A DNA stretch of 64,000 nt from NCBI GenBank assembly GCA_020809705.1, contig CP085826.1:558001-622000 (forward strand), given 5' to 3'. Shown here piece by piece: positions 4,899 through 49,006 of the stretch. This stretch comes from Calonectria ilicicola (taxonomy: Eukaryota > Ascomycota > Sordariomycetes > Hypocreales > Nectriaceae). The notes under the pieces are model-generated. The model worked only from the letters and a program-made list of their open reading frames with translations, searched no databases and had not been told where the DNA came from. Position 1 is the stretch's first letter; each line of letters begins with the position of its first letter. The translations under genes were made by a program, and so were the position numbers.

Positions 4899-6580
4899 AT
4901 GATGGCGGCCCACAAACACACTAAAACGCAGCATGTCGACGCAAAGAGTGCCCCAACTTATAATTCTCCCAAACCTCAGTCGCAGACGGGCCAAGGCGAG
5001 GAAGGGTTGCCTGATAACCCCGCGCGCCTTGAAATAATCCCTTCTTCCCAACGAAGAGGATTTCTTGGCCGCTTCACCATCATACCCGAGGTGTCAAACC
5101 CACGCGCCTACAGCAACGCAACAAAATGGGTCATGACGAGCATCGCTGCTTTGGCTGCCACTACATCATCCACAGGATCTTCCATATTTTATCGTGAGTT
5201 AATACGTTGGACAAGGGCGCACGCTACAAACGATGCTAACAATCTTTTAGCTGCACTGGGCGACATGGCCATCGATCTAAAAACCACAACCACAATTACC
5301 AACCTATCCCTGGCCTTTTACTTGCTTGCCATGGCTATAACTCCCATGTGGTGGTGGGTCTCCCCTCGATATGCAGTAAATTCTCGAGGCCCATGAATGC
5401 TAATCATTTGACTAGGTCTCACTTTTCCGAATCATTGGGACGACGCAACATATACATCATCTCATTTTCGCTCTTTACTGTATTCTCATGCATCAGCGCT
5501 GTTAGTGTAAACATCGCCATGCTCGTCGTCATGAGAATCTTTAGTGGGGGAGCCGCCGCCTCGGTGCAGGCCGTGGGTGCTGGTACCCTTGCCGATCTCT
5601 GGGAGCCAAAGGAGCGAGGTCGTGCAATGGGAATATTTTACCTGGGTCCTCTTTGTGGACCTGGGATTGCTCCAATCATTGGAGGCGCATTAACAGAGGC
5701 CTTTGGTTGGCGAAGCACGCTGTGGTTCCTGGCCATTTTTGGCGGAGTGCTTTTCCTTCTCATCTTCTCCTGCCTTCCTGAGACGCTTGCGAGGCCCCAG
5801 ACCACTGAAAATGACCAAAAGGTGGAAGCGCAAGCGCTAAACAAAGGCACTAGGGTCCTGAAGCGCCTCGTTGAGCCACTCGGAGTACTACAGTACCTAC
5901 AATACCCACCCATCCTCGTGTCAGTGTACTCGGCAGCCATTGCTTTTGGCACGCTCTACGTGGTCAACATTTCGATCCAAAGTGACTTGGCGAAGCCTCC
6001 CTACAACTTCACAGCGATTGAAGTCGGCTTAGTCTATCTGGCGCCAACGCTGGGCTACGCGGTCGCATCAGTGCTCGGAGGGCGGTGGATTGACTACATC
6101 ATGGCCCGCGAGGCGCGCAAGGCCAGCCGTTACGATGCCGACGGAAAACCTGTGTACCTACCCGAAGACCGTCTGAAGGAGAATATTTGGCTGGCAGCCA
6201 CATTGTATCCTGCCGGTGTGATCTGGTATGGCTGGTCTGTTGACAAGGGCTTGCCGTGGATTGTGCCGTGTGTTGCTGGCTTCTTCTTCGGCATTGGGGG
6301 CATGCTCCTGTTTGGAGCCGTCACCACTGTGCTCACCGAATTCATGCCTAAGCGCGCATCGAGCGGTGTTGCCATAAACAACCTTATGCGAAGCACTTTT
6401 GCATGTGTTGGCTCCGTCGTTACTCAACCACTAATCAATGCCATGGGTACTGGCTGGACTTGCACAATGATAGGATTGTTTGCGTGGGTTACGGGCAATG
6501 CTGCCATCCTGGCTTTAATGTACAGGGGGGCAGAGTGGAGAGCTAGTATGAACAAAAAGCTCAACTCCCAGAGCTCTTGA
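4899..6580 (+). CDS. MFS transporter, DHA1 drug:H+ antiporter type
   Basis: Exons 4899-5193, 5251-5353 and 5416-6580; 520 aa. Introns are GTGAGT...TTTTAG (57 nt) and GTGGGT...ACTAG (62 nt). Splicing restores the family-typical junctions SSIFYPALGDMA and MWWSHFSESLGRRN. The cytoplasmic N-terminus of about 80 residues is followed by about 12 hydrophobic segments. Seen: the motif A region SESLGRR, and the antiporter-type stretch GAGTLADLWEPKERG then FYLGPLCGPGIAPIIGG in TM5. A long central loop (YDADGKPVYLPEDRLKEN) is usual for Qdr/Dtr-like DHA1 carriers. Probably an exporter of small hydrophobic compounds at the plasma membrane. Neighbours are an SDR upstream and a convergent Zn2Cys6 regulator downstream that may control it; the substrate is unknown. 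Confidence 0.92.
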
Positions 6581-7094
6581 GCCTTTGGTGACATGGTATT
6601 TGTGATTTTTGGCTAAAATGCCAGAGTAAGCCGCGGGCATTCTTTGACGGATAGAAATAGATGGAATTCGATCGCCGCTCTTGATATTTAGGGGGAACTT
6701 TTATACATTAGTCTTATTTGCAAAATTCGAGAGTGTAACGAACGACGATAGGTGTTAGGCACCTTCGATCAGTGATAGTTAAAGTATGGACTATAGCATC
6801 AGTATACTGTTTTTTTTTTACTCTTGAGTCGCACGTAACGGGTGTTTTGCCATCGGTCTAACCTGAAAATTTGTTGGTTGTTGCTGTATCTAAGACATTG
6901 AACCCGAAAACCCTCACTCCTGGTACCTTAGCCAGCATTGTTTCTATTACAATCCAACCTAAACACCAGACTTGTATGATGCACAAGCACTTAATGGCCA
7001 ACTATGCACCTATTTCACCATATCCCAATATGAATTTCTTTCGGACTGGATATATTCATGACGACCTTGATGCAGAAGCTACCCCCACGGCCAA
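6581..7094. other. Convergent intergenic region
   Basis: The 3' flanks of the MFS gene (+) and the Zn2Cys6 gene (-). No gene or clear element is seen apart from a poly-T run near 6810. Confidence 0.5.
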
Positions 7095-9517
7095 CTATTC
7101 CTCCTGCAGCGGCGGCTCGGGCGCATCCATCATCATCCATTCATCTAAGGCCACATTCATATCTATGTCTGTCATAAATGTGATGTCGGGTAGATTCTGA
7201 TCTTCTGGGTTAGATATGCTTAGAAGAGAAGGCTCAACAAATCCATCTGCTGTGACCTGGTTAGCTTCAAAAAACGACAGTCTAATCGGCATACACTTAC
7301 ATGGAAGGGAACTAAAGGCATCCCCAAGCATCTTTTGTACATATATTTCCGAATTGCCATGACTAGAAGCCGCAGTTGCACTCCCACTTTGGTTGTTGGG
7401 ATCGGAGTCGTTGGAGACGCCTCTTCTAGCCTTTGCTAGCGCGAAATTTATAGCCTCAGTTGCCTTCTTTGCTTCGTCGGAGTCAGCACTTTTGCGCAGC
7501 CAGATTTGTCTCGTTTTTTGCAGTGCGGATAAAATCTGGTCTTTCCGACTCAAGGTCTGTTGGCGGTGCAGCATTAAGCATAAAATCATGGTGGCTGAGA
7601 GAAAAAGATGGTTCATGCTGGAGGTCACACGCCAACGTAGTGAATGAAGTTGACCACCGGGTTTGGTCTCCTCGTCGAGCAATTGCTGTACCATAAGAGT
7701 GCTGAGTGCGGAATCTAGGCAAACGGTACGCGAATAAGTAAAAGTGTCCACTTCTGTAGAAAGCGAGTCCATGAAGAGATAATTTTGGTGTAGCATAATT
7801 TTCCCTCTGAATACCATATGGCGTATGAAGAGGCGGGCCATGAAGATTTGCGGAGGATCAGTGATGTTGGCCTCCTTTGATGTCCATTTCAATGGCGGGG
7901 GAATACTATCCGCCGCCTTATTCAGAATATCATCAACGCGCATGGCATCGTCATAGCTACGAGACTCAATGCTAGTCGCATGATCCAAAACGGCACCCAT
8001 CGCAATCATTAACCGCCTGCGTGCAATGAGGTTAAGGCTTGTTGTATACTCGGTCTCCGGTCGTGATGGGGGCAGTTCGGTCATCTCTGAGTTCAGATCG
8101 TCATCATTCAGATTTCGTGGCTCAGCCGTGTCGAACTGCAAGCCAGAGAGCATACGAGGCATGCCCATTTGACTCGAAATAAGAATGTCGCTTATCAGCA
8201 CTTTGGACCACATACGCCGGCGTATCTCGGCCTTCAACGGTGTGATTTTTGGAAAGTGACTTGGATCACGGTGGTAGCCCATGCGCATGGCCATATTGAT
8301 TTCAAGCGACAGCAAGAACCACGCGTCTTTATTGGCGTCCGTGTTATAAATAAGCTCGATATATCCATAATGCATTAGCGTCTCCAAGACATAAGGACCT
8401 GGCCTGGTATACTTGGTAATGTAAAGGCACTGCACAATCTTCTCACGGTAGAAGTCAATTTGTATAGATTTCTGCTCCGCGTTGTGGTCCACTCCAAACT
8501 CGCCCGTGTCTGAAATAATTAGGGAGAGACATATTATGCTGAATAAGAGGCCGACCCAGGCAACTGGAAATGAAGAAGGGTTGGCCCAAAACTTTTCATA
8601 CTATATTTCCATGCATGTCAGAATTTTCTCTGGCCGCCACAGCTTTTGAGATGGCCTAATACGTACCTCTTGAAGGAAGGAATGCCGATGAAGAGCTTAT
8701 TTGCCATGTGTTAGCTGGTGTATGATGTGGGGAGGTAAGCGAGAGTACGCTTACAAGCGGCAACAGAATCGACGAGGTTGAAATAACGTGAAACATGGCG
8801 ATTTACAGCATCTTTTGCTGGCAGCGCTTCGATTATCTCCTCTGCAGAGACCTGTCGATTGTAACCATATAGAAGCATCACATGTTGTGGATTTCCATTT
8901 TTTGGGCCATGATCGCTATTTTCCTCCAAGAGATTGGCCATTCTCACCTCCTCTTGGTCAACGTGGTCCTTTAAATCTGCGATGCTATCCAAGATGGTGA
9001 CCCAGTGATTATCCTCAACATATTGAAGCTCCGATGCACTGACGCGCATATTTCCGCATTCAGAGAGTGCATCCACTGGGGGAACTGAGGGCGAAGAGTC
9101 TTCGGGGCAGGCATGGGATGTGGAACTGGGCCTCGAAGCTGGTGTTGGGACACTTGTTGAGTTCTGCTTCAGCGACACAACTAGCTGCTCCAATAGTACA
9201 AGACGGTCATGGAGACTGGGTGGCGGGGCTATGGGTGGTAGCTTTGGCATGAGTGTTGGTGCCCGGTTTTCTGGATAGGCGCACACTAGGCCCCGCGTTG
9301 AGCAGGTAGAACATGGCTGACGGCGGTCGCACCGCGATCTGAAGGATTTGTTGATTAGCAGTTGAGGATTTTCAACACATGCTTAATGTGGAGGAAGAAG
9401 CCCTCACTTGCGCTGTCGACAGAGGTTGCACGACAGTCTGGCCTTCTCTCGGCGGCGGTTTGCGGGCGCCGGCCGCTGAGCCGTATCGGCATCCACAGCC
9501 GGACTGTCGGTTGACAT
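7095..9517 (-). CDS. Zn2Cys6 transcription factor with fungal MHR domain
   Basis: Exons on the minus strand: 9408-9517, 8755-9338, 8667-8695 (29 nt) and 7095-8600; 742 aa. The first intron (9339-9407) splits the binuclear cluster. The joined protein has six cysteines in the order CNLC, RQRKSRC, DRRQPC, STC, STRGLVC, i.e. C-x2-C-x6-C-x5-C-x2-C-x6-C, at residues 32-59. The 29-nt exon is supported because it restores LHRHSFLQEYEKFW, the hallmark of the start of the middle homology region. The rest (YGYIELIYNTDANKDAWFLL, INMAMRMGYHRDP, RRRMWSKV) is the Fungal_trans domain. A further in-frame 54-nt intron (7247-7300) near the C-terminus is possible. DNA-binding nuclear regulator; targets may include the neighbouring MFS and SDR genes. 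Confidence 0.92.
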
Positions 9518-18795: not shown

Positions 18796-20366
18796 CTATT
18801 TTCTCATTTTATGAAGACTGCAACCTTTCCCTTTCTTGCCATGGTTTGCACTACCTTGGCCTTTCGGGCGAGACCCTGGAGTAGACTGAGCCGAAGCTAC
18901 CAATTGGATCGACGTGGACGTGGGTGTATTGCTAGCAAGCGATGCCGAGGCGGTACTAAACAGGGTACTGGATGAAAGCGAACCAAATTCTGTTGAGGTG
19001 GGAACGAGGGTTGCTTGGCTTTTGGTGGTAAGAATGGTACCCGCAATAGATTTCACAGTCTCGGCGGCTTCAACGGTGGAACTGGTGCTGGTCGGAAGCA
19101 TGGCGGTAGAAGAAGTAGACGCAAGATCGGATTCGTCAAGATGGTATAACAAAGAGCCCCATCCTAATCCATCATAGTGACCAGAGCCTTCGCCCATAGA
19201 TCCAGCCCCACCTTCAAAACCACCGAAATATTCCAAGGTATTGTTCAAGTACGCGGTGGTCCATGGCGCATCAAGTCCCTTGATTTGAACGTAGTGTGCA
19301 TAGAGCAGTTCCCAGTTGGGTCGAATAGCACCTCGAGATGCTGAACTGATATTGGTATAACTTACAATACCGTTGGTGTATGGTTCGAATGGTACATCGT
19401 TGCCAAGATTGTACCTTGCAAAATACTCTGCACTGTAGACACTCATGTCAGAAAATGGTGGGTCTTGGGGAAGTTCTCCATATATCCAATGACGTACCCA
19501 AGGAGAATGCGACTATTGTTGTAAGCAAATAGATCCACGCCTTGATTCCAAGCTTGCTGTCCAATCGCTGCCAGCAGCTGAAAATCAAGGGCAGAATGGC
19601 CTTGGTCACGGCCAGACTCCTGGCCCTGCCCCAATGGTTTGCCGGTATCTGGCTCCTCGACAATATAGCTAATGGCATGGTTAATATTTCCGTTTCCGAC
19701 TCCGTTTTTGAAGTAGTCGACAGTAAAGTCCCACGTGGTTTTATTTTCCGTCAGGACACCGATAGCTTGAGCAGATGCAAGGTTGCAAAGCTCCCAGTTG
19801 GCAAAAAAGTGCAATACGTTATGCTCTGACGGAAGCTCATGATTTAGGAATGCCAGATTCATGGGGAGAAAAATATCGGTCATCATCTTTTGAACAAGAC
19901 TGAACCCGCTCTCGACAAATGGAGCATAGTCACGCAACAACTCGGCAGCGTTAGCCAACTCGTATCCCTGAAGACCGGCAGTGAGATAATCATCGTCACC
20001 TCCACCAGAAAGTGATTTCAATTTCTCCGACCAATCGACTAGAATTTTAGCAGAAGCTTCTGCGTATTGGTCCTGGCCTGAAATCTTCCAGCGAAGAGCA
20101 AGGTTAAAGGCGGCAGCGGCATCGTGCCAAAGCAACTGGCCGTTAGTGCTGCGTGAAATTGTGCTCACAGCGTTGCTGGCGTAAGAAGTATTGGAGAACT
20201 CAAGACTGGTTAATTTCTCCCAAGAACCAAGCCATGGCTGCTGCTCAGCCTTGATCTTGCTCTGGGCACGAGAGACATCTGCGTTGGTAACCAGAAGACC
20301 AGGATGAGTGAATCCAAGGGCCAAAGGTAGAAATGAACAGAATAACAATAATACACGGCCAGCCAT
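18796..20366 (-). CDS. Secreted alginate-lyase-family enzyme with Ser/Thr-rich tail
   Basis: Exon 1 is 19498-20366 and exon 2 is 18796-19432, with a 65-nt intron (GTACGT...CTACAG); 501 aa. Splicing gives RILLGAEYFARYNLGNDVPF, so the two overlapping frames are exons and not a frameshift. Signal peptide at residues 1-18. The alpha/alpha-toroid alginate_lyase domain (about 20-375) shows NGQLLWHDAAAAFNLALRW, EHNVLHFFANWELCNLAS and QESGRDQGHSALDFQ, the last being the family signature. The C-terminal 130 residues form a Ser/Thr-rich linker ending in a basic KKGKGCSLHK tail with no clear GPI signal. Probably cleaves uronate-containing polysaccharide outside the cell; the substrate may not be alginate. 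A TATA-like stretch lies about 120 bp upstream. Confidence 0.9.
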
Positions 20367-25985: not shown

Positions 25986-27633
25986 ATGAATTTCCAACTC
26001 ACCAATACCAACTTGGCTGTTTGTGCTGTATCCGGCATTGTCATATCAATATGGCTGGTCAAGGTTTTTAGCTACTCTTATCCAAACTCTTCATCTCATA
26101 GCTAACCAACCAGGTTTTGCAACAAGCCTTCTTCACCCCTCTCCGTGCGATCCCTGGGCCTTGGTACGCCAAATTCACCCACCTGTGGCTGAAATTGCAA
26201 ATTATTAGGGGAAGAAGAATGTATTATATCCACAGCCTTCATTTAAAGTATGGTCCTGTAGTGCGCGTCTCTCCAACTGAAATCGACTTTACGGACCCCG
26301 TCGCAGTTAAAGAGATCCATCGTATTGGAAGCGGATTTCTCAAGGATAAGTGGTATCAGTCATTTCGCAAAGGGGATACTCATGATGTATTTTCCGTCAT
26401 TGACCCGAAAGCCCATGCGCAAACCCGAAAGCAGATTGCTCCGTTATTCAGCCAGTCAGCCTTGATGAATAACTGGTATCCGATTGTTTCTGAAATGTTA
26501 AACATGGCGATTGATAAAATGAAGCAAGATGCGATTGTAAATGGCGAGACAGACATTTACAAGTGGTGGACTTTTATGGCAGCGGACGTCATCTCTCGTC
26601 TCTCTTTTGGCGAAGAATTTGGCATGCTCGATCTCGGCAAGGTAGAGAGTGCTGAAAAAAACTTGCATCAAGTGAAACAATAAAGCTAATAAAATGCGAC
26701 AGAAAACGGCACACATGAGCTTGATTGAAACAGCTACCAAGACGGGACTGATTGATTCGGAGCTCCCACTTCTCTGTCAAGCTCTAAGACTCTTACCTAT
26801 CCAGAAGTTAAGGAATTTCCTCAATGCTGGATCTGAAGTGCAGAACATTGCAGAAGCTATCATTCAACGGACAAGACGCACCGTGGGTGCAGCAAACATC
26901 TTCTCAAAACTTGTTGCCGAAAACGAAAAAGACAACGAATATTTTAGTGATTACCAAGTTGCCTTTGAGGCGGGCGGTTTTATTGTCGCTGGCTCTGGGA
27001 CCACTGCCGTGACTTTAACTTACCTTGTCTGGGCTGCACTTTCTGACCCGCGCATTCAAGAGAAGTTGGAGGCTGAGGTTGGCGCCTTGGAACAGGGCTT
27101 CACTGACCAAGATTTGCAAGACCTTCCCTACTTGTCCGCTGTACTTGAGGAAACATTGAGAGTCTATTCAGCTGCCCCAGGAGCGCTCCCTCGCTGTGTA
27201 CCCGAAGGAGGAGCTACACTCGCTGGGTACTTTATTCCCGGTGGAGCCACTGTCAGCACCCAGGCATATTCGTTGCATAGGGAATCAAGCGTGTATGAGG
27301 AGCCAGATAAGTGAGTTCGCAGCCTAACAATGTCACAAGGACTGAGCTAATCATGGCCAACCAAGATTTATGCCGGAAAGATTTATTGGACCCTCCGGAG
27401 ATTTTCAACCGGCGAAGGAAATGTTCATGCCTTTTGGAGCTGGCTCACGAACTTGTTTAGGCATTCATTTGGCAAAAATCGAACTTCGGGTTGGAGCTGC
27501 TCTCTTCTTCAGGGAATTTAAAGGTGCCCGATTGTCGCCTCGCACAACGCCCAAATCGATGGTTCCGACGAACCACTTTCTCATCAGCCCCATAGGAGAG
27601 GAATGTTTTGTTACTCTTGGTTCTAGATATTGA
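25986..27633 (+). CDS. Cytochrome P450 monooxygenase
   Basis: Exons 25986-26063, 26114-26641, 26703-27310 and 27366-27633; 493 aa. The third exon junction uses GGCAAG|GTAGAG...GCGACAG (61 nt); reading on without it hits a stop. An N-terminal ER anchor (LAVCAVSGIVISIWLV) precedes the Pro-rich hinge RAIPGPWYAK. Motifs: I-helix AGSGTTAVT (oxygen activation), K-helix EETLR (ExxR), PERF, and haem loop FGAGSRTCLG with Cys as iron ligand. Length and order are complete, so the enzyme should be active with a CPR partner. The first intron begins GTTTTT, a weak donor. Not closely clustered with the terpene genes (6 kb away, and lacking their shared promoter element), so membership in that pathway is open. 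Confidence 0.92.
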
Positions 27634-32251: not shown

Positions 32252-33781
32252 TTAGAAATGAAATATTTGACAAGAGGTTTGTCGCCTCAGTCTACTTGCC
32301 ATGGGATCGGTTTCAGTGTCAGGGACCACCACGTCCACTTCGCCTCCATTCACAAAGAATATCAATTTTTCCATTGAGTCGATGTCAATTTTATCTGTCG
32401 CTAAATTAATATTGAGCGCATTTAGTCAATGGCGAATTGTACTCACATAAGAGGCATTGACATTTCCGATAATAGGAAGTCCAAGATTGGATGCAGCACT
32501 CGTAATCTCCCTTTCCAGGAGGGTAATAGCACGAGAGATGCCTTCAGCGCCGAACATGTTGGCGTACATGAAAGGACGCCCAAGGCCAACTGCTCTAACA
32601 CCAAGCGCCAGAAGCTTCATCACATCTGTGCCATAACGGATGCCGCCATCTGCATATACCTCGATCTCATCAAAGATGCTAGGATCTTCCTGGTAGATTT
32701 CCCATGCGATTTCCAGAGGCGAAGGTGCGCCGTCGAGTGAACGTCCACCGTGGTTAGATAGGAAGATTGCAGGAGCACCGACTTCAATTGCTTTGCGAGC
32801 ATCTTCTACCGTTTGGATGCCTTTAGGAATAATGGGAAGAGATGTTATAGATTGAAGCTCCTTGTAATATTCCCAAGTCATGAAAGTATATCGTGGATCA
32901 CGGCTGGCAGTGGGATCTGCAATTAGTCTCAAGGGGCGATAGGCAGTTCGATCTCCAGCGGAATCGATGGTGAGTACAATGGCTTTCATTCCAGCGCTTT
33001 CAATTTTGGCAAATAGTTTCCGGGGTAGTTCATCGCCCAGGTTCATTAAAGAGATCTATAAATGGATTAGCCGTGTATGAAAAAGCACCGTGTTTTTGAA
33101 GAATATACCTGTTGCCAGAGTACTTGATTATCCTGTCGTTTGGCCGAAATCTCTTCCATCGACAAACTGGATGTCTGGGAAGCCTTTGATGGGGTCAGCT
33201 ATCGAACAAGTCTCGAATTTCAAGCATTCTCACAATGTACAAAATATTGTGCTTGGCAGCACCCTCTACGAGATTTCCTTCTGCACCTGGATTTGTGATT
33301 CCCGCCTGGGCAAAAGGACTGATGAAAAATGGTTCGTCAAATTCATGGCCGAGAATTGAAGTTCTGTAACTGATAAGCCGAGTGTAAAATGAAGGGTCAT
33401 TGTGGCACATACTTGAGACTGGAATCTACTCCAGTGATATTGACCATGACACGAGGACGAAATCGGAATCTGCCGAAGACCTCAAGATTGTTTCGATATG
33501 ACGCTTCGCTACCTGCGCCCTGCCTGACGTATGCATACATTGTTTCATTCATTTGCTTTCTTGCCCAGTAATCGAAGTCTGGAAGACTAAGGACGCGGTT
33601 CAAAGGCGGCAATGATCCATTTTTAGGAATATCGAGCGAGTTCTCAATTCTGAGACGCAAGTCAGCTAGAGCATGGCTAAGTTGTCAGAAGGTATCTTTA
33701 CCCAGTATCCACTTCGTTCAGAAAGGGCCTAGCAGCCAGGGCCGTGGTCGCCAGAATAATCGATAACGTAGCACAGCGCAT
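32252..33781 (-). CDS. FMN-dependent alpha-hydroxy-acid oxidase/dehydrogenase with signal peptide
   Basis: Six exons: 33702-33781, 33413-33649, 33234-33363, 33109-33183, 32443-33055 and 32252-32400; 427 aa. The junctions restore VDTGIENSLD, SLKTSILGHEF, NILYIASQTSS, LWQQISLMNLG and NASYVTTDKIDID. The family (glycolate oxidase, lactate dehydrogenase/flavocytochrome b2, mandelate dehydrogenase) oxidises 2-hydroxy acids at FMN. Seen: PFAQAGITNP, LTIDSAGDR, the active-site Lys in PIIPKGI, the catalytic HGGR motif in SNHGGRSLDG, and the FMN-phosphate site YADGGIRYGTDVMKLLALG with GRPFMY. The N-terminus MRCATLSIILATTALAA is a signal peptide, unusual for the family, so a secretory or vacuolar location is inferred. 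No cytochrome b5 domain. A 17-bp cluster element lies 161 bp upstream. Confidence 0.92.
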
Positions 33782-34818: not shown

Positions 34819-37800
34819 TTATTGATCTTTTCTCATCTGCTCTAGAATTTTCCGGACAGCCTTGTCCTTTTCCATTTCTTGCCATAGAAGTGGTTCCCAA
34901 TCGAGGAAGCCTTCGCGCACACCTTCATCAGAGCGAGCAGGCTGTCTGAAGAGAGATAGACATTGCGCAAATAAAGCTCGGATCATAGGGTTCTGCCTGA
35001 GAGCCTTGAGAGTATACTCTGCTGCTAACAGGAGGCTGATTGTATACAGCAGAGCAAAGGACCAAGATGGGTCAGGTCCGAACGTTTTTGTCAGTCCACT
35101 TTTGAGAGCGTAAGGGCTAGCTTCATAGCCAGAAATCATAGAAGTAATAAAGAGATATGCCCATATACCTAGGATGCTCCCAACGAATGACCAGAGAACT
35201 ATTTTTGTCTTGTAATGCGTTTCAAGAATCCTACAGTGATAATAAGTTAGTAGGGTTCAAAGTTTGGAATGATTGTCTGAGGACAAACTCACAACACCTT
35301 GTAGTTGGCCCAGATCATACATGCAGCAAATACCAAGGCTCCCTCAGCATATAATCCATTGTCATCAACCGTGTCCACGCCACCACTATACCCAGTCCAG
35401 CAGCCTGCAAATATAACGAAGGCGGCCACCAGAGCATTGGTCATCCAACCAAGGTAGACCAGGGGCGTTAAGCCTTCTCCATTCTGTCCGAAGACGTACA
35501 GTTCCGGAATAGCCATCAACGTGTCCGCTTTTAAATCCTGCTCATACATGCCCACGACTAGTATGGTTGCCGCGGTCAAGAAGCTGGTGAACATTAGATC
35601 TTGAGAGTAGTATAAACTCGTTCCGGTAGCGCCAGCAACAGGTTGGAATACGGCTTGAGGGAAGTAGAACAGAACCTCCTTCCAGAAAGTCACAAGGATA
35701 AATCGTGTGGTGCGGTAATAATTCCATCGGCCGTGGACGAACATGAGACGAGCCAAGAAGCGAAACTGCGCGATGCTGAAGTCTGCGACTCTGGTCGCCT
35801 GTTGGCCCTCACGCCCTGCAATGCCAACGCCTACACTAGCGGTCAAGATCATGGCCACATCGTTGGCACCATCTCCAATGGCAAGTGTGAGAGGCTTGCT
35901 GGGTTTAGACCATGGCCTAAGCCAGCTCCAATGACTGCGCTGATTCTTGGAAACGGGACCGTTACCAATAATACGGACGAGGAGGGCTTTCTGGGATGGC
36001 GAAGCGCGACAGCAAATAACGGAGTCGACTTGGGGAGCAAGTTCACAAAATATGCCCAGTAGTCGACCTTCAGGGTCCTCCTCAATAGCTGTGAGCGCCA
36101 TTCCGTCAATGACAACAGCGTGATCAGTGGTTTGGTGGCGGTTATGTGCAATGCAATCTGCGATACTTGTCATCTGAAGTTCAAGGTTGCCCGACGTCAC
36201 ATCCAAGATGAAAAGTGATGTATTTGGCCCGCAGATCCGAGCCGAGTGGGCAATGCTGATAGCTGTCTCCCGCTTGTCCCCTGTTAACATCCATATTTTT
36301 ACGTTGGCTCGACGAAGCTTATCAATAGTCTCAGGCACACCTTCTTGGAGTTTGTCTTCAACAGCCGTGGCTCCGAGGAGATGAAGAGAGTCTTCCATTA
36401 ACTCCCCAACTTCTTCGATTCGTTCTTGGCGGCTCTGAAAGCTTGTCTCAGCTTCCCGATATTGCTGTTTCCAGTCTTGGTACTCGCTTTCTGAGATAAC
36501 TTTGCTGGCGTAAACGAGTGTGCGCAGCCCCTCTGTTGCATATTTGTCAATGTGAGCAAAGCATTGAGAAATGCAACGTGTTTCATCTTTGGCGAATTCT
36601 GCAGCTGATTCTAGCATGTTTTGAAGGGAACAATGATTGACCGATTTCACTGCTTCAGCCGCCCCCATATTCTCGCATAGAGGAATCATGTCCTCTCCTC
36701 GAAGTGAGTAACCGTCAACATCTCGAGGTGTTTCATACTCATACATAGTCTCATTTCCATTTTCCATCCATTCCTGTGCTGCACTTTCGGAAGACTCAGG
36801 TCGCCATGGTTGGTGGAGAGTCGTAGCTTGTTTGAGGTTGTCGTTGAACCCCATATTGCTTACCATTTCCGTTGGTGCCATTCTGAGGCGAGGAAGAATG
36901 ATAGAATCGGCTCCCTTGCATATGACCCAAGTGGCACCATCTGGGCACCGAACAATCACGGTCATGCGTTTGCGCTTGCTGCTAAACTCTATTGTGTCAA
37001 GAATCTGAAATTCTAGCATCTCAACCTCCCCAGTTACATTCGTGATTTGGATCGTGGTTGATTTTGACGATCTTTCAACGGCGAGGAATCCCATCTCCCT
37101 TGCTGCTCTTAAAAGCGCTAATTCATCAGGTGAAGAGGCCTGAAAATCGACTTCGCCGTTTTCATCAGAGATGGGTAGGCAAGTATGACAAATTGCCATG
37201 GCAAGAAGGAAGCATCGGACCTGTGATGCAATCGCACTGTAAGGCTCGGAATAGAGGTTTTCCAGTAGATCGGCCGTGGTAAATTCTCTTAAACCGGACC
37301 TGGATGTCTCAGGTGAAAGATCACTCTCATGAGCATCAGGTTGATGCAGCCAACTCAGTCCAACAATGCTAAATTTTCGAACATTCATGATATTTTCTGT
37401 AAGAGTGCCGGTTTTGTCCGTGAATAAATAACTGATTTGACCGAGGTCGTCCAAGTTATTCGTAGTATTGACACGCGCAGGGCTGTCGCTTGCCTCATCG
37501 TACATGTGAACATCGCTGCTGATGAGACTCATCTGGCCAAGTTTGATGCCTTCAAGACCCACATATAGGGACAGCGGGATAATATTGTTGAACATGATGA
37601 TGAATCCGAAAAATATCTGAACCAAGGGAACGGTCGAGTTGAATAAGTACCAGGCCTCTGATTCGACTTGATCCTTCCATAAGATATAACCCAAGGTAGA
37701 AATTCCGGAAAGAAGGATGATGAAAACGATGAGAGTCAAAATGATATAGTTTGTAAGCCGCTCGAGCTTAGGTTTCTTGGTTTTGATCTTAATCTTGGAG

Positions 37801-38678
37801 TTTATTCTAAGTTTGCATTCCTCACCAGTGTTGACAATAATGCCCACAGCCTCAGGCGTATTCCGGATGGTTGAACCTCGATAGATGACTTCATTTTGAG
37901 ACAAGGGAAGGGTCTGGCCATTTGTTGTTATCTTACTGTCAAATCTATACAAATCCGCGTTTGGATCCTCAATGCTGAATGTTGCATCACAGTGCGTCAT
38001 CATCTCAATTGTGCTGCAGTTGCCAAGTGTCGCCGGTCTTTGTTTCGGCTTGAGATTTGTCTCACCATCCAGTGCCATCGTCTCGACGAAGGCAAGTCCT
38101 TTGTCGCCAGTAGCATGCAACAGAACAAAATCGGCCGGGACATCGTCATTATTGAAAAGCTTGATGACTTCTCCCACCTTCAAGTCCTGCCATGCCGTGT
38201 TGACCCATTCAAGATCGACTATGTCTTGAGCGCCATAGGTGGAAGAAGGGTGGCCCCGCAGAACCGTTGCAGATCGATTATTTTCCGCGATGTCCTGGCG
38301 GTATCTCTTCCAATCATAGTAGCCTTCTTTACAAATAATAATGATGACAAAAAGAAGTAACGGGATAAGAGTGGTGAAGCTACCCGTTGTGCTGAGTCCC
38401 GGGATAGCTTGCAAGATCGATACGACCAAAAGATAGCTATTGGCCAGACGAGTAAACTGGTAGGCTATTTGCCGAGGCAGAAAATCCCATACGGTATATG
38501 TTGAAGTTCGAATGGCATTTGATATATATGGTGATCCACGTCTCTCGTCTATGAGAGAATGTGCTTGTTGGTGCTTGAGGCGAAGTGGGATTTTGCGGCC
38601 GTCAATAGATGGTGGCAGTGGAAATTTCCGCAAAACTAGTTGGACAAAGTATTTGTCCCACAATGTTCCAAAATTCAT
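34819..38678 (-). CDS. P4-ATPase, phospholipid flippase, Dnf3-like
   Basis: Exon 1 is 35293-38678 and exon 2 is 34819-35230, with a 62-nt intron (GTGAGT...TGTAG); about 1265 aa. The first in-frame ATG is at 38678; a stop lies upstream. All P4 hallmarks are present: a YISNAIRTSTYTVWDFLPRQ start, actuator DGETNL (about 204-209), TM4 IPLSLYV (PISL-type, lipid path), phosphorylation site DKTGTLT (Asp near residue 421), VKIWMLTGDKRETAI, and GDGANDVAMI, with about ten membrane helices. KEGYYDWKRY, PGLSTTGSFTT and VEDKLQEGVPETI resemble the Dnf3/DnfC branch. It would move phospholipid from the outer or luminal to the cytosolic leaflet using ATP and needs a CDC50-type subunit, which is encoded by the next gene. 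Being in a terpene gene group, it is probably an accessory copy. Confidence 0.95.
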
Positions 38679-39794
38679 CTTCGGTTGCAAGTAGAAGTGG
38701 TATTAGTAGGCGCCCGACGATGACTTTTTTTATTGTGCTTTGCCGAGTCACAATAGCCTTTGGGAGAAAACAAATCAAATAGGGGATATTGAATTAAAAA
38801 GGAAACCCAGATACCTGGGCAGAATACGAGCCGCAGTCCTTTTGCTAATACTTCTGAAATTGATTCTTGACATCATTAATCGTCTTGATAAATGGCAAAA
38901 TATAGTTATTTGGTCTCAGCTTAGTTGAAGAGGCTCCAGTGGGTTCTGTGCTTTAGCTCCGAGGGGCTATGTTGGTAAGGCGGCATTGAGAAAGCTAATC
39001 CTTGCTGGTGCTTGGTGTCTGAGCCTGGCGCATTGCCCACAATGCACTAGCCTGAATTTAAACCGACCTCGCTTGATGATATACTCGCGAAAACGATAAC
39101 GAGGTTCGGATAGCGGAGATCCTAATTTGCATCCGCATCCCCCCATCTGCTTTTCTCCACCCCACTGCGAGACTATTCTGCACCAAATGGATAAATGTTT
39201 GTAAAATAGGATGGCGTAGAGCGATCTATACTTTATTGAGTGGTTTAGTTTTCTCGTTCTTTCTTTGTCGTTCGTTATTGGATACACCAATTGGTATTGC
39301 TTGTTCAGGCCAGAAAACCAAAACAAAAAGCCCAAAGCCTTCATGCGAAATCGCTCCGCCTGAAATGTCACATGGGACTACTTCATTGGCTCCTTAACAT
39401 ATTTCTCGGCTTTGCCCTTCTCAGCCCCCGGTTTGCTCATTCGTAAGCTTGGGCGCAGCAAATTGATGATGTCAATTGTGTCAAAATCAGCCTGACCAGC
39501 TAACCTTAAGCTTTCTTCTCACCATGCCAAGCCAAACTACCGAACGAATTAAATGTTATACCAAACAGGTCTCCAATGCCTAACCACATCAAAGCCTGCT
39601 CCTACGAGACACACTAAATAAAATACTTCGGTTTGCCTCTGCTCTAGTATCCATCATTTTATTTATTTTTTTTTTGTCGCAAAAAGAAGGGAATAAAAAC
39701 GGGTAGCCTGGCTCACTAACACGCCTCATCTGGACCTTGGCCACACTCTCAATCACACTTTGTGTCCTCATTCGCCTCGAATAAACCAAATAGG
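38679..39794. promoter_or_regulatory. Bidirectional promoter, flippase / CDC50 pair
   Basis: A shared 1.1-kb region between the divergent flippase and beta-subunit genes, suited to balanced expression of the two subunits. No gene seen. It holds one strong copy of the cluster element (39087-39103), a looser TCGTT-rich stretch near 39252-39278 and a T-rich run near 39665. Confidence 0.55.
39087..39103 (-). promoter_or_regulatory. Cluster promoter element, copy B
   Basis: On the minus strand CTCGTTATCGTTTTCGC, identical over all 17 bases to 49256-49272. It is 409 bp upstream of the flippase ATG and 692 bp upstream of the CDC50 ATG. Confidence 0.6.
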
Positions 39795-41156
39795 ATGCGT
39801 TGGTCACCACTAAAGTCGAGAAATGATAGAGAGGGCCCGAAATCTCAGAGACCTAAGGAATCTCCATACAAACAGCAGAGTATGGGTGCATGGGAGTAAG
39901 TCTCTTCCAAATCTTAAAGTTTTCACAAACTTAACGTTAGTTTAATGCAATAGACCTGTTTATACTCCGAAAACTTCAAGCATAATTTTATTAACCCTTG
40001 GAATTATCCTCATTGCATTCGGCACGTTTTGGATGATAACAAATTCCAAGGTTAGACATCACCAAAAAGTACTCGCGCATCCAGTCCAACTAACTCGGCT
40101 GCCGTCCAGGTTAAAGAGATACGATTGGACTACACAAGATGCCACGAAATCAATTCATACGACAGATTGGAAACAATGCCCAATAAAAATGTCTGGAAGC
40201 AACCCAAAACAGCATCAGCAGAACCATTTTTGGACCGTTGGAAGCGTTCTAATAAGACATTGACATTTGACGGCATCACTAAGAATTATACGCTGTGCAC
40301 AATTGAATTCTATCTCCCGGATGACATGCAACCACCAGTTGTTTTTTATTATCGCCTCACAAATTTCTTCCAGAATCATCGCAACTATGGCACTTCAAAG
40401 AACGATGGGCAGTTGAAAGGCAAAAATGTCAGTTTGAAATCAATAAAGGACTCTGGTTGCAAGGAACTCGATGCTATCAAGGTAAACGAGGAAGAGAAGA
40501 TCATCTATCCTTGCGGTATCATTGCAGCCTCGTATTTTAACGACACGTTTTCAACACCGCTTCTATTAGGTAGCGGGACTGATAGCTTCGGAAACGGCAT
40601 TGCCTATAATATGTCCAAAGAAGGTATTGCCTCAAGTAACGATAAGTCTTTTTATAAGAAGACTAATTATGCGATACCATCTGTGGCTGGTGAAGATAAC
40701 AGCACAATTGTGCCACCTCCAAGCTGGACTGAAAGATATCCGAAGGGTTATCACGACGGAAATATGTTCAACCCGGAAGTTGATGAGTCATTCATGGTAT
40801 GGATGCGAACTGCCTCTTCTCCTCGTTTCGCGAAATTGGCGATGCGCAATGACGATGCGCCAATGAAAGAGGGAATTTATCGTCTGGAAATATTCTCACG
40901 TAAGTTGCTCTCTTAAACGTGGGTTTCCCAGGACTAAATCTCAATGTCTGCAGACTTTCCGGTGCACAAAAATGGGGGAACCAAATCAGTCATTATATCA
41001 ACGAAATCAACAGGTGGAGCACGAAATCCTTTCCTTGGTATGGCAAACATTGCGACTGGTAGTGCTTGTATCCTGTTGGCATCTCTCTTCGCTCTCTCGG
41101 CCATTTGGAAACCACGCCCGTTGATACATCATATATATCTACATGGGGCTCATTGA
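39795..41156 (+). CDS. CDC50/Lem3-family P4-ATPase beta subunit
   Basis: Exons 39795-39895, 39954-40050, 40110-40899 and 40954-41156; 396 aa. Topology is that of the LEM3/CDC50 family: a cytoplasmic N-terminus, TM1 (SSIILLTLGIILIAFGTFWMI), a large luminal domain with several N-glycosylation sequons (NKT, NYT, NVS, NDT, NMS, NST) and cysteines, then TM2 (ATGSACILLASLFALSAIW) and a short tail. Family blocks seen: YYRLTNFFQNHRNY, IYPCGIIAASYFNDTF, YPKGYHDGNMFNPEVDESFMVWMRTA and FPVHKNGGTKSVI. These subunits are required for folding, ER exit and activity of P4-ATPases, so this is the natural partner of the adjacent flippase. The pair is divergent and shares a promoter region. Confidence 0.95.
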
Positions 41157-41469: not shown

Positions 41470-43043
41470 TTAATCATGATAGCCGTTGGAGAGGTATGGG
41501 GGATTTCTGAGAACTTGGATCCTGCGAGTGTTTTTGATCGTAGGGGCATCGCGACCCAAATATCGTTCTGATTTGAAGCTAGAAATTACTACGTTAGTCT
41601 GCATTGAACTCGCACTCGGAATTATTGTTCCGTACCTCCAGTTCATGTTGGCGCTGACGACTGACTTGATACCCTCAATGTATTCTTTCACGTCTGGGTC
41701 CACCTTCTCTCCCCAACTGGGCACACTCTGCTCAACTGTTTCCCACCGGCGGAAACGCTGCTCTAGAAGGCTTCCTACGGCGTTGAAGGCTTCTTGGGCA
41801 GACATTCCCTCGAGTCGGCAGACGGCCACCATGTTGTGAATAGCAGCCTCGGACTGATTTTCCTGGTGTTAGTCGAAAGCTTGACCTAGAGGACGTTTCT
41901 ATTCCTACCTCTTCCTTTTTATACGAAATAATGTCGTTGGAGCTGCATGCTATTAGCTTCTTAACTCCGCTTTCTGCGCTCTCAGCGGCAAACTACTCAC
42001 ATCGAAACCATATCCTGGCCGAGGATCTGGAGTTCTTGGATGCTGGGGTTCTCAAAGACTTCGTCTGGAATATTTAAACCGTTTGCGTACTCCACCAAGG
42101 GGTACACCGGCGCTGTACCGGCTGATTCGCGTCGCGTGACCACCATTTCCTCGAGTGTTGGGGTTTGGTGGGTGTCTCGGTCGTTGATGTGCTTCAGAAC
42201 AGCTGAACTGTATGAACGCACAGCAGAAGCATACCGTCTTTGAACACCTATGGATTGATTAGCAAGGTACACTATGCCGCACACACTTCATGGTTCATAC
42301 CGGGCGGTGTGTCCTACAACGTGGTCAGCCAGCGTACGCCGAGAGGAGTCATGCATCTCACCGCAGCCATAATCTTCACACATGCATCGTGTGCTTGGAC
42401 AAGTTTCAACTTTGTTCCTCCGCTCTTTCTTCCCTCCATAGTTTCCATAAAGCTGTCCATGACCTCTGTTGCCTTTTCTGGCTGGTCTTTCAGGTCACCG
42501 GTGTCAAACACTATTCATGTTAGTTGGTCACGGTACCACGATGCCCTGGAAACATACTGTCATCGTATGGGAATGTCTGACGCAATTTAGTTAGCTTGAG
42601 TCATCAGCAGTTCAATCTCGGTGACCTACCATGTTACCCCAGTCGCACACCATACGGAGCTTGTCGCGTGGAGCAGATGAGACGGCAATGGCACAGAAGA
42701 AAGAAAAGTCACACTTGTTGATCTCCATCTGCATTTTGGGGCTAAATGAACAGAGCCTGACCATAGTTAGCAAATGAAGGCCAAGCGCAGACGGTTAGCC
42801 CTACCGAGCCAGCCAATCCTCCGACTCAAGTTTGACAGCGTGGTAATGCGGGTTGACCTTGGGTGGCTGTCTCAGAAAGGCCTGAAACAGGTCGGGCAGG
42901 ATGACATCGGTGTATTCTGAATCCTCACGGATACCAGCATTTCCCTTAGACTTGCCGCCATGTCTAAGAGAAAAGAATTTACGGGTGAGGTAGGTTCCGC
43001 AGCAGCTTGAAAGCACAACAAATAGTAGAAATCGTGTAGTCAT
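41470..43043 (-). CDS. Class I terpene cyclase (sesquiterpene synthase-like) with N-terminal anchor
   Basis: Nine exons: 42805-43043, 42630-42741, 42558-42576 (19 nt), 42362-42510, 42301-42313 (13 nt), 42001-42247, 41909-41942 (34 nt), 41636-41862 and 41470-41578; 382 aa, every junction in phase. The small exons are supported because they rebuild conserved motifs: FPYDD|MFDTGD (metal-binding DDxxD, residues 122-126), DTPPG|VQRRY, and NDIISYKKE (NSE triad, about 261-269), followed by the SERYLG (RY) pair near residue 351. CDWGN precedes the Asp-rich motif as in fungal cyclases. It should ionise a prenyl diphosphate, most likely FPP by size. Unusually it begins with a hydrophobic segment (FLLFVVLSSCCGTYL) followed by basic residues, suggesting ER membrane anchoring. 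Confidence 0.9.
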
Positions 43044-45089: not shown

Positions 45090-46908
45090 ATGCCACTAAT
45101 CGATAAGGCGCTGTTTCTAGTTTCAGCTTGCGTCATATCAGTAAGTTGACACATAAAACATCGCAAACAGGGAACTTGGAAAAAGCGCAAACTAACCTAA
45201 TTAGACACTTCTCTATATTATAGGATCAATCGTCTTCAACATATTTCTACATCCCCTTCGCAATTTTCCAGGGCCATTGCTCATGAGAGCAACGCGTTTG
45301 ACATACGCCTACAAAGGAATTGCCGGCACGCTATCATTTGATGTACTAGATCTCCACAAGAAGTATGGAGATGTCGTCCGAGTCGCACCTAATGAACTCG
45401 CATTTGCCAACGAGAAAGCCTGGAGGGAAATTATGGGTCACCGAACTAAAGGCTCCCCGGAGTTTATAAAATCTCCTATGTTCTATAACAGCACCGATGG
45501 GGCGAATAATGTTGTCACTGCAAATGGAGCCGAACATGCGATGCTCAGAAGACAGCTATCCCACGGCTTTAGCGACCGCAGCTTGACGTGCCAGCAACCC
45601 ATCATCAAAAATTATATCGACAAGCTAATATGGAGGCTACATCAACATAGCCATGATGGCCCCGTAGATATCATGTCCTGGTACAATTTTACAACGTTTG
45701 ATATCATCGGTGATTTGGCTTTTGGTGAGCCATTTGGGTGCCTTGAAAACTCGGATTATCACCCATGGATAAAGACCATCTTCAAAATGGCAAGAGTAGG
45801 AAACGCTATACAACTAGCAGGCCATTTTCCAATCTTACACAAAGCAATAGTCAGCATCCTGTCTTTCGGGTTGACTCGGAACCACCAGGATTCTCATCGG
45901 CAAATGACAAGAGAAAAGCTTCTCAGAAGAATGAAGCTTGGGGAACATAAAGAGAGGTCAGATCTTATTGAAGGTCTACTGAGGAAAAAGGATGAATTGG
46001 TATTTGCACCCTCACCCTGATTCCAAACATTCATTTGTCAAAGACAAATACGAGGCTTGATTTCGTGAATAAAAGGGCTAACGGTAATTTTCAGCAATTG
46101 TCAATCTCTCAGCTAGAGAGGAACGCTAGTATTCTTATCATCGCAGGGTCAGAAACCACAGCCACGGCTCTTTCAGGAATCACTTATCTCCTTATGAAGC
46201 ATCCAGAAGCATTGCGCAAGCTGGCTGAAGAAGTCCGGTCAACTTTCAAGAACGAGAATGAAATCGATTTCAAATCAGTCAACAAGCTGCCATATTTGCT
46301 TGCTTGTGTCGACGAAGGCTTGAGGATGTACCCCCCTGTTGCTAGTGGCCTTCCTCGAATGTCTCCGTCTGAAGGTGCCATTGTCTCTGGATATCACGTC
46401 CCAAAGAATGTGAGTTTGATTTCTCATGAATATATAGTGTCATCCTCGTGTGTAGATATGAGCAGGAGATAGCACGCTAACATCCTCGCCACTAGTCAAT
46501 TCTAGCAATTCATCAGTGGGCGTTGTACCACAATGAAAATCACTTTAAAAGGCCATTCGAGTACCACCCTGAGCGGTTTCTTGGAGATCCCGAGTTCGAA
46601 TCAGACCATCGTGAAGTTCTACAGCCATTCCACATTGGGCCGAGGAATTGCTTGGGAAGAAAGTAAGCTATTACCCATTTGTTACGTTACATGTCGCATC
46701 CGTTATACTCTAAAATAGACTGGGCTTGACTAACCTTTACCTCAGCTTAGCGTACATAGAGATGAAAGTGATTATCGCTCGCGTTATCTGGAACTTCGAC
46801 TTGGTTTTGCGTCCACAGAGCAACATGTGGATGGAGCAACAGAAGATATATAATTTATGGGAGAAGGGGCCGTTGATGGTGGATCTTGTCCCTGTCAACA
46901 GGCCTTAA
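45090..46908 (+). CDS. Cytochrome P450, CYP65-like (isotrichodermin C-15 hydroxylase type)
   Basis: Exons 45090-45140, 45205-45999, 46095-46409, 46496-46662 and 46746-46908; 496 aa. N-terminal anchor (LFLVSACVISTLLYIIGSIV) then HPLRNFPGP. Motifs: DVVRVAPNELAFAN, FTTFDIIGDLAFGEPFGCLE, I-helix IIAGSETTATALSG, ExxR in DEGLRMYPP, HPERFLGDP, and haem loop FHIGPRNCLGRNLAYIEMK with the Cys iron ligand; the last intron interrupts this loop (LGR|N). These blocks match the CYP65 group, common in sesquiterpenoid pathways. It probably hydroxylates the product of the neighbouring cyclase. Introns 2-5 are 64-95 nt, longer than in most genes here. Divergent from the cyclase and sharing the cluster element. 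Confidence 0.93.
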
Positions 46909-47271: not shown

Positions 47272-49006
47272 CTAGTTGACTGAGGTAGAAGAATCTTCTT
47301 TCGATCGTGTTCGCAAAGTCTGTCCGAAGAAATACAGTGCAATTGGTATTGGCATTAACACCAACGAAATAAAGCCCAAGAGGGAATTTCCCCAGCCAAG
47401 CCCTAACTGATCATATAACCCAAGGCCCCCGAGTGGTATCAAGGCTCCTACTAGTGATCGCACGACCGTTGTCGCAGCGGATGCTGAGGAAGCGTGACGT
47501 TGATATGAATCAACTAGATAGTTCTGAAGTGTCATCTGGAGAAATTGTAAGCTTCCGAGACAAGACCATCTTAATCTTAACTCACCGTCAACCCCATTAA
47601 CCCGGTCGAGAAGATAAAAACCCCAATCATTGGAAGGATCCAATGGGTTTTGGTCTGTACTGCCCACCCATAACCAAAAAGTCCAATTAGCTGGGCTATC
47701 CCTGCCGGCACAGTCAACCATGGGGTCAACTTCACTTCAGGTTCATATTTGGTCCCTGTATTCTCCTTTTTTCGTGAACGACGGAGAATGAAATCACCAA
47801 TATAACCGAAGGATACAACCCCTACCATCATGCCCAATCCAGCAGGCAAAAAGGATAAACCGGCTTCACCTTCGTCGAAACCATACTGACCATTGTAGAC
47901 AAATGAGAATGTTGCGATCAATAAACTAAGAATTCCATTTGATAACCCGACATATATTGCAATCCAAAAAACAATTGGAGTAGCAAACAAAAATTCCAGT
48001 GGTCGAGCTACTGCAGTCCTGATACTACTCAAATCCTGCTTGTATTCCAAGCTCAAGTTTCCTGTTTCTTTTCGGAGCCGACAAGCTTTACGCTTAAGAA
48101 TGATAGGCGCATACGTTTCGCGCATAAAGGATAATGAAAGAAGCCCGAATATGCCGCCCTACCAAGGTTAGTCTACATTTCCTTTGTTTGGAGAATGGTG
48201 GTGAATTTCGGTACCAAGATTGAATGAAACCAGTACACCCATCGCCAACCGGCGGCTTGGATCAAATATCCTCCAACGGTAGGGCCGATGCAGGGTCCTA
48301 AAAGTGGCCCAATCGCCCAGAGGGATACCGCCCTCCCTCTAAACTCGAGAGGAATTGTGTCCACGATTGTACCGATCCCGATCGTTGTCGGTATGGAGCC
48401 AACAATTCCCATCAAGAATCGAAAGGCCATAAGCATCCCTATGCTCTTGCTCAATGCAGCACCGACAGAGACCACAATAAAAAAACAGTTCCCTGCATGG
48501 TAGATAGATAATCGCCCATATATCTCACTGAGAGGTGCGAATATGAGCGGGCCGAATGCATACCCGAACATGTAAATCGAAACAATGAAGGTTGATAACT
48601 CCTCAGATTTTGTGTGAAATTCCTCCATGAGGCGGGGAACCCCCGGTGCAAACATCGAAGAAGCCTGTGAATTTTATTAGGTGGACGAAATATCCTCTAG
48701 AGCTGGTTGGTACCTACCAAAGGTCTAAAAAATTAGCAAAATAAATCACAAGGGGATGACGACTCACGATATGAGGGTAAGTAGAGACATGATAGCGATG
48801 TTTGTCCACTTGCGCCAGTTCGGCCAGTTCATAGGATTTTCTGGGTCGTCTGGCCCATCCCAATTAACAATAATGGGGTTGAGAGGTTGATTGCAATATC
48901 CAGCATTGTTTGATGCTGTGCATTCAAGAATGCTGGCTGTATTGCCGGAGGTCTGGCGCTCTAGATTTGATGGATCAGGATCTTGCCTCAAGGTTGATCC
49001 TGCCAT
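47272..49006 (-). CDS. MFS multidrug transporter, DHA1 family, with 7-nt microexon
   Basis: Exons 48768-49006, 48718-48724 (7 nt), 48215-48664, 47586-48158 and 47272-47535; 510 aa. The 7-nt exon ACCTTTG is inferred because it alone joins TLIS to PLASSMFAPGVP in frame, a conserved TM1 sequence of this family. Other blocks: NWDGPDDPENPMNWP before TM1, PLSEIYGR (motif A), GPLLGPCIGPTVGG (antiporter motif C), FMRETYAPIIL, and LQNYLVDSYQRHASSASAA near the C-terminus. Twelve predicted helices, 12-TM drug:H+ antiporter topology. Likely plasma-membrane exporter of the cluster product or its toxic intermediates. A cluster element identical to that of the flippase/CDC50 promoter lies 250 bp upstream. 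Confidence 0.92.

Follow-up and report, generated by a model that had tools for sequence, protein, structure and literature searches.

The locus described here raises the question of whether two adjacent genes, which together would encode a complete lipid flippase, belong to the terpene pathway beside which they lie. The genes are those of a P4-ATPase and of a CDC50/Lem3 subunit, and they occur in a 64,000-base stretch of the genome of Calonectria ilicicola (C2:558001-622000, hereafter the window); the genome comprises 69.9 Mb in 12 contigs. Its nearest relatives in the protein searches and trees bear the names Fusarium, Ilyonectria, Clonostachys and Trichoderma, as expected of a member of the Hypocreales. 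An initial annotation, made from the letters of this stretch, had read them as a duplicated flippase dedicated to a terpene pathway. The evidence presented below leads to a different answer, namely that the pair is likely to be a self-contained accessory flippase cassette, co-inherited and dispensable, which is present in a range of Sordariomycetes and is no part of the terpene pathway of this fungus.

The two genes of the window are complete and stand head to head. Gene models were obtained with a simple home-made gene finder, and protein domains were assigned with Pfam (coordinates in Table 1). The P4-ATPase carries PhoLip_ATPase_N, Cation_ATPase and PhoLip_ATPase_C domains, the four catalytic motifs checked (DGET, DKTGTLT, TGDK and GDGAND) are all intact, and the closest solved structures are P4-ATPases, among them yeast Drs2 and Dnf1; by domains and motifs it is a P4-ATPase, for which lipid transport is predicted. 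The smaller protein covers positions 2-285 of the 286 of PF03381, its four ectodomain cysteines align with those of the solved fungal Cdc50 6lcp_B, and two hydrophobic stretches are visible by eye, and the full domain and the conserved cysteines mark it as a CDC50/Lem3 subunit. The arrangement first noticed, adjacent and divergent full-length genes flanked by a flavin mononucleotide (FMN) oxidase, a terpene cyclase, a P450 and a drug exporter, is confirmed by gene models, Pfam and motifs, the exporter in the form of an MFS_1 match.

A six-frame search of the genome, the counts of which are lower bounds for large families, returned seven P4-ATPases and three CDC50 genes. The subgroup names given in Table 1 to the five non-paired P4-ATPases are our own assignment, presumed from similarity and membrane-segment motifs. 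These five of the seven fit the five-flippase set of Fusarium graminearum, two members of which are placed in the Dnf3 subgroup in the published account (PMC7488471). The two additional P4-ATPases and the two additional CDC50 genes form two divergent pairs, one in the window and one on contig C11, while the third CDC50 gene, at C1:4837k, lies on a contig without a P4 match. Two of the three CDC50 genes thus adjoin a P4-ATPase, and, by rough arithmetic that assumes an even spread of genes, two such adjacencies would arise by chance about once in 100,000 cases; chance adjacency is unlikely. Between the window and C11 pairs, the P4-ATPases are 49.6% and the CDC50 proteins 48.4% identical, and the duplication is therefore old. 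Among the genes predicted around both pairs, close matches are confined to the P4-ATPase and CDC50 themselves. The other matches, at 22-33%, are family-level resemblances of P450 and transporter-like genes, and co-duplication of the neighbours with the pairs was ruled out on these grounds. A conserved bidirectional promoter was likewise rejected, since the longest word common to the two divergent gaps has at most 10 bases. Beside the C11 pair, a Fungal_trans transcription factor gene (C11:2475058-2477203, plus strand) lies tail to tail with the P4-ATPase and could act as a regulator of that pair; among the genes predicted in the window, no Fungal_trans gene directly adjoins the pair.

These counts bear on the plainest reading of the locus, in which ordinary housekeeping Dnf3 and CDC50 genes stand near a cyclase by accident. 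Such genes would display the Dnf3-like sequence motifs and the typical CDC50 domain that are seen here. However, the genome contains two other Dnf3-like genes (C2:3745k and C6:4113k) as well as the CDC50 gene at C1:4837k, and the first part of the circumstance in which the initial annotation would have conceded a housekeeping role, that these were the only Dnf3 and CDC50 genes of the genome, is false. Trees of both proteins, which it had also called for, point the same way. The CDC50 trees hold 42 rows (3 from C. ilicicola and 39 of the 120 matches listed, drawn from 111 that passed a length filter), and the P4 trees 48 rows (7 own and 41 of 120 listed), of which the careful tree retains 41; the rows are mainly named species and metagenome rows sharing a contig, most anonymous metagenome rows having been dropped. 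In the careful CDC50 tree, one clade (100/100) unites 27 of the 42 rows, among them the two paired copies of C. ilicicola, and excludes the housekeeping CDC50 of this fungus, and in the careful P4 tree the paired clade comprises 31 of 41 rows (100/100) and is sister to the group with C2:3745k. The C1 CDC50 and the C2:3745k P4-ATPase group with the housekeeping copies of other fungi, but the window genes do not. A housekeeping identity is rejected on the genome count and the trees, and we regard it as very improbable. The window P4-ATPase groups with Dnf3-like proteins and not with Drs2, Dnf1/2 or Neo1, in trees from which yeast Dnf3 and Crf1 are absent, a placement that bears out its original description as Dnf3-like.

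Within the paired clades, Camillea branches first and a Colletotrichum/Diaporthe lineage is recovered in both careful trees. The lineage of the window pair includes Fusarium and Clonostachys in both trees and Ilyonectria in the CDC50 tree only, and a C11 lineage of 10 rows (Fusarium, Colletotrichum, Paramyrothecium) is found in the P4 tree (100/100).

The occurrence of the pair in other fungi was judged by contig matching. Protein searches, which rely on common five-residue words, supplied the relatives, and the best 120 of 324 CDC50 matches and the best 120 of 4212 P4 matches were considered. Of these, the 39 CDC50 rows with an identity of 50% or more were compared with 46 of the 47 P4 rows that reach the same threshold; the P4 row left out, P0168 (50%, contig 37938), lies on a contig that matches no CDC50 row, and one of the 39 CDC50 rows, P0012, has no contig size. 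A CDC50 row and a P4 row on contigs of identical size were taken to share one contig. Each row represents a cluster at 90% identity, for which a single name and the longest contig are given, and most of the 26 unmatched CDC50 rows are unjudgeable; 25 of the 39 are included in the CDC50 tree. By this measure, a contig in common with one of the 46 P4 rows was found for 13 of the 39 CDC50 rows. Consecutive locus tags are present in three of the 13 (Fusarium nematophilum 011875/011876 and 006347/006348, Diaporthe australafricana 010260/010259), four of the shared contigs are metagenome contigs of 18-33 kb, and moderate weight can be given to a contig of Camillea (222 kb) and to one of Fusarium (340 kb). 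Among the matches listed, the pair is scattered over Fusarium, Colletotrichum, Diaporthe, Clonostachys and others, and F. nematophilum, like C. ilicicola, has one pair of each of the two types.

The two subunits also appear to have diverged together. Across 15 pairs (the two of C. ilicicola and the 13 co-located ones), P4 and CDC50 distances taken from quick trees are correlated with r = 0.963, a value reached by none of 20,000 permutations, the maximum of which was 0.726. When partners were swapped within each of the two genomes that contain two pairs, r fell to 0.817 and 0.835 singly, and to 0.751 when both were swapped together.

Several observations weigh against co-inheritance as a unit. 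The permutations retain shared species history, which the within-genome swap removes only in part, and the nearest neighbour agrees between the P4 and CDC50 trees in just 9 of the 15 pairs. The CDC50 tree gives no resolved lineage of the C11 type, and in the P4 tree long-branch warnings apply to the C11 protein (C11_P4) with P0162 and to C6:4113k (C6a_P4) with the outgroup. Four of the 13 co-locations are weak, namely Clonostachys byssicola (0.5 Mb) and Paramyrothecium, Diaporthe sp. PMI_573 and Colletotrichum truncatum (3.6-4.1 Mb), as none of them has consecutive tags. For species other than C. ilicicola, the evidence is co-location deduced from identical contig sizes and not gene orientation. 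On one contig of F. solani-melongenae, a window-type P4-ATPase and a housekeeping CDC50 are 147 locus tags apart, and same-contig evidence alone can therefore mislead.

In both trees, the Diaporthe PMI_573 copy and one C. truncatum copy (P0007/P0151 and P0012/P0159) are sisters (100/99 and 100/100) and fall among Colletotrichum rows. This placement might reflect a joint transfer of both genes between orders, or else an old duplication followed by loss. A bolder history can be drawn from the accessory-cassette reading, in which a mobile two-gene cassette would have been assembled once, early in the Sordariomycetes, and would later have undergone duplication, loss and, probably, transfer in its entirety between distant genera; its lipid path would have diversified to guard against or traffic amphipathic metabolites, and it would just have landed by a terpene cluster here. 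We consider this full scenario rather unlikely and offer it as speculation.

The link to the terpene pathway can be assessed from the cyclase as well as from the pair. In a pathway-dedicated flippase, the pair would have been recruited to a terpene cluster in the lineage of C. ilicicola only, where it would protect membranes or load a terpenoid into vesicles. The locus itself gives this idea its appeal: the CDC50 and cyclase models are 313 bases apart, and the FMN oxidase, the P450 and the major facilitator superfamily (MFS) transporter all lie within ~8 kb. The genome contains ~14 cyclase loci (six-frame PF19086 search), and by rough arithmetic a cyclase would be found by chance no more than 5 kb from either of two pairs in ~0.6% of cases, so that a link is mildly suggested, contrary to the accessory reading. 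Elsewhere, such a link was not found. In the six-frame search, the PF19086 match nearest to the C11 pair is ~200 kb away; of the 14 other genes predicted in the 50 kb around that pair, the four scanned are a P450, a histidinol dehydrogenase, a Fungal_trans regulator and one without a match. Relatives of the window cyclase were found in 43 proteins, 39 with a species name and four unnamed, in a search that very diverged cyclases would escape; the nearest are from Stylonectria (53%), Trichoderma (57%) and Diaporthe (52%). A contig in common with the 39 CDC50 or 46 P4 listed rows was found for none of the 43, and the species in which the window lineage of P4 or CDC50 occurs (Fusarium, Clonostachys, Ilyonectria) are missing from the 39 named relatives. 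In Diaporthe PMI_573 and Paramyrothecium, a relative of the cyclase is present as well as a flippase pair, on contigs of different length. Linkage to a cyclase kept in other genomes, by which a component of a terpene cluster was to be recognized, was thus not found by contig matching.

Precedents from other fungi can be cited on the side of a pathway role. The P4-ATPase BbCrpa of Beauveria bassiana is reported to confer resistance to cyclosporin and FK506 via vesicle transport (PMC10322151), and in F. graminearum the output of the toxin deoxynivalenol (DON) is described as promoted by FgDnfA and FgDnfD and repressed by FgDnfB (PMC7488471). Like the window protein, BbCrpa is a fungal P4-ATPase, and it is tied to the handling of toxic secondary metabolites, but by the published figure it is ~60% identical to Drs2p and belongs to another P4 branch (PMC10322151). 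The window protein is Dnf3-like in the tree and is not on the Drs2-like branch of BbCrpa, and both the BbCrpa and the DON precedents concern P4 branches other than its own. The main text of PMC10322151 contains no mention of CDC50. In the available account of the Dnf3-type genes of F. graminearum, growth, conidiation and virulence stayed close to those of the wild type upon deletion of FgDNFC1, FgDNFC2 or both, and DON was at 141%, 86% and 90% of wild type, respectively (PMC7488471). These results argue against Dnf3-type flippases being strongly involved in the output of terpenoids. A terpene-dedicated module is unsupported by homologue searches with three proteins, by contig matching and by the genome cyclase search, and recruitment in this lineage alone appears improbable; the terpene gene probably came to lie beside the pair by chance or recently. 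Of the initial proposal, the duplication stands, on seven P4-ATPases, three CDC50 genes and the trees, and the terpene dedication does not; as to conservation of the neighbourhood, the P4/CDC50 pair recurs, and linkage to the cyclase was not found by contig matching.

If the pair is an accessory cassette, its proposed mode of action follows from its parts. A P4-ATPase derived from Dnf3 would be kept next to a CDC50 subunit of its own and inherited with it as a unit, with two old versions in C. ilicicola. The CDC50 partner has a role in the exit of P4-ATPases from the endoplasmic reticulum. P4-ATPases of the Dnf3 kind are reported to require a CDC50 partner for activity (PMC9426505), and because of this need the two window proteins are expected to form one heterodimer, and a linked, matched pair would encode a complete pump. 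Linkage would allow gain, loss or movement of the entire pump in a single step. For yeast Dnf3p with Crf1p, the substrates described are phosphatidylcholine (PC) and phosphatidylethanolamine (PE), and the site is the trans-Golgi and secretory vesicles (PMC6944739). From these, we infer that the window pair, like Dnf3 in published accounts, would move lipids of the PC/PE type into the cytosolic leaflet, and that it would act in the late secretory pathway. The likeliest role would be optional membrane remodelling, vesicle traffic or tolerance of amphipathic compounds under chemical or host stress. BbCrpa and the effects of flippases on DON output lend this view some help, although they come from other P4 branches.

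Among known systems, the closest are yeast Dnf3p-Crf1p and the DnfC, FgDnfC1 and FgDnfC2 proteins, which likewise combine a P4-ATPase with its own CDC50 partner. In the paired P4 proteins, the segments Q-x-IPG-[LF]S and P-L-[SA]-L-Y, which we take to be transmembrane segments 1 and 4 (TM1 and TM4), match those of the Dnf3-type proteins of C. ilicicola, such as C2:3745k, and differ from those of its Drs2-type protein. Unlike the DnfC group, the window P4-ATPase is in a separate clade, the window CDC50 is a duplicate apart from the housekeeping gene, and the genes are physically paired. Pde1 of Magnaporthe, a Dnf3 orthologue, is a P4-ATPase of the Dnf3 type whose role, in penetrating hyphae, is conditional (PMC6944739); a linked CDC50 is not described in the available text of that source, and Pde1 is compared here as a Dnf3-type protein only.

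Of the pair-bearing fungi, which belong to Fusarium, Colletotrichum, Diaporthe, Clonostachys and others, many are plant-associated. A cassette for detoxification or competition, directed against the membrane-active compounds of others (plant, bacterial or fungal) and independent of any biosynthetic cluster, would agree with the scattered distribution of the pair, although this distribution may reflect sampling, and with the BbCrpa precedent. It would also agree with the coexistence of two diverged versions in one genome, which differ in a lineage-specific TM4 residue: three places before PLSL, N is found in 7/7 window-lineage rows, Q in 11/11 C11-lineage rows and H in Camillea. The N/Q difference may mark different substrates of the two lineages, as a possible switch. 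Detoxification is a narrower form of the accessory-cassette explanation and not its opposite, and in this specific form we hold it to be possible, if on the unlikely side.

Table 1. Genes and intervals of the window (positions without a contig name) and P4-ATPase and CDC50 genes elsewhere in the Calonectria ilicicola genome.
Feature	Position	Strand	Details
P4-ATPase (flippase alpha subunit), Dnf3/DnfC-like	34819-38678	minus	2 exons, 34819-35230 and 35293-38678; 1265 amino acids; model, Pfam, motifs, tree
Divergent intergenic region, possible shared promoter	38679-39794		1116 bases
CDC50/Lem3 beta subunit	39795-41156	plus	4 exons, 39795-39895, 39954-40050, 40110-40899, 40954-41156; 396 amino acids
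FMN-dependent dehydrogenase/oxidase (FMN_dh, PF01070)	32362-33552	minus	Pfam; approximate model
Class I sesquiterpene cyclase (Terpene_syn_C_2, PF19086)	41470-43043	minus	Approximate model of 382 amino acids
Cytochrome P450 (PF00067)	45090-46908	plus	~465 amino acids; Pfam and model
MFS transporter (PF07690)	~47275-49006	minus	MFS_1 match on 48176-48673; approximate extent, 5' exons suggested
C11 pair P4-ATPase	C11:2477500-2481435	minus	Six-frame search and gene prediction
C11 pair CDC50	C11:2483230-2484680	plus	Adjoins C11 P4-ATPase, divergent; gap 1794 bases
Drs2-type P4-ATPase	C2:5802k		Type from similarity and TM4 motifs
Dnf1/2-type P4-ATPase	C5:3917k		Type from similarity and TM4 motifs
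Neo1-type P4-ATPase	C6:3412k		Type from similarity and TM4 motifs
Dnf3-type P4-ATPases	C2:3745k and C6:4113k		Type from similarity and TM4 motifs

The neighbouring genes are modelled less securely than the pair itself. The cyclase model has nine exons, one of them of 13 bases, and is approximate; its best solved match, presilphiperfolan-8-beta-ol synthase, which we take to belong to the botrydial pathway, scores 172 bits only, and we know of no flippase pair in the botrydial cluster. At the MFS locus, one of the three open frames scored matched MFS_1. A further P450 at 25986-27633 (plus strand) is split into two parts, which cover profile positions 8-180 and 192-453 and are separated by a stop near 26683; it would be either a broken gene or one with an unrecognised intron. 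Farther off, a gene that is transporter-like by sequence adjoins a Fungal_trans regulator (4902-9049), and an alginate-lyase-like gene is found at 18796-20366.

The P4-ATPase and CDC50 families are both known, and the linked, co-inherited pair appears to be undescribed: among the literature titles and abstract openings listed, mostly of non-subscription sources, no earlier account was found of such a fungal pair, nor of any terpene cluster that includes a P4-ATPase. The locus also carries a caution, in that a transporter beside a terpene cyclase need not belong to its pathway. Most P4-ATPases function only with a matching CDC50, and the assignment of partners is usually experimental. A linked, co-evolving alpha/beta pair in several genomes offers candidate matched partners, and the flippase, being probably dispensable, would be amenable to deletion testing. 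The set of pairs may thus serve as natural data on covarying subunits, from which the subunit interface and the lipid specificity of flippases could be approached.

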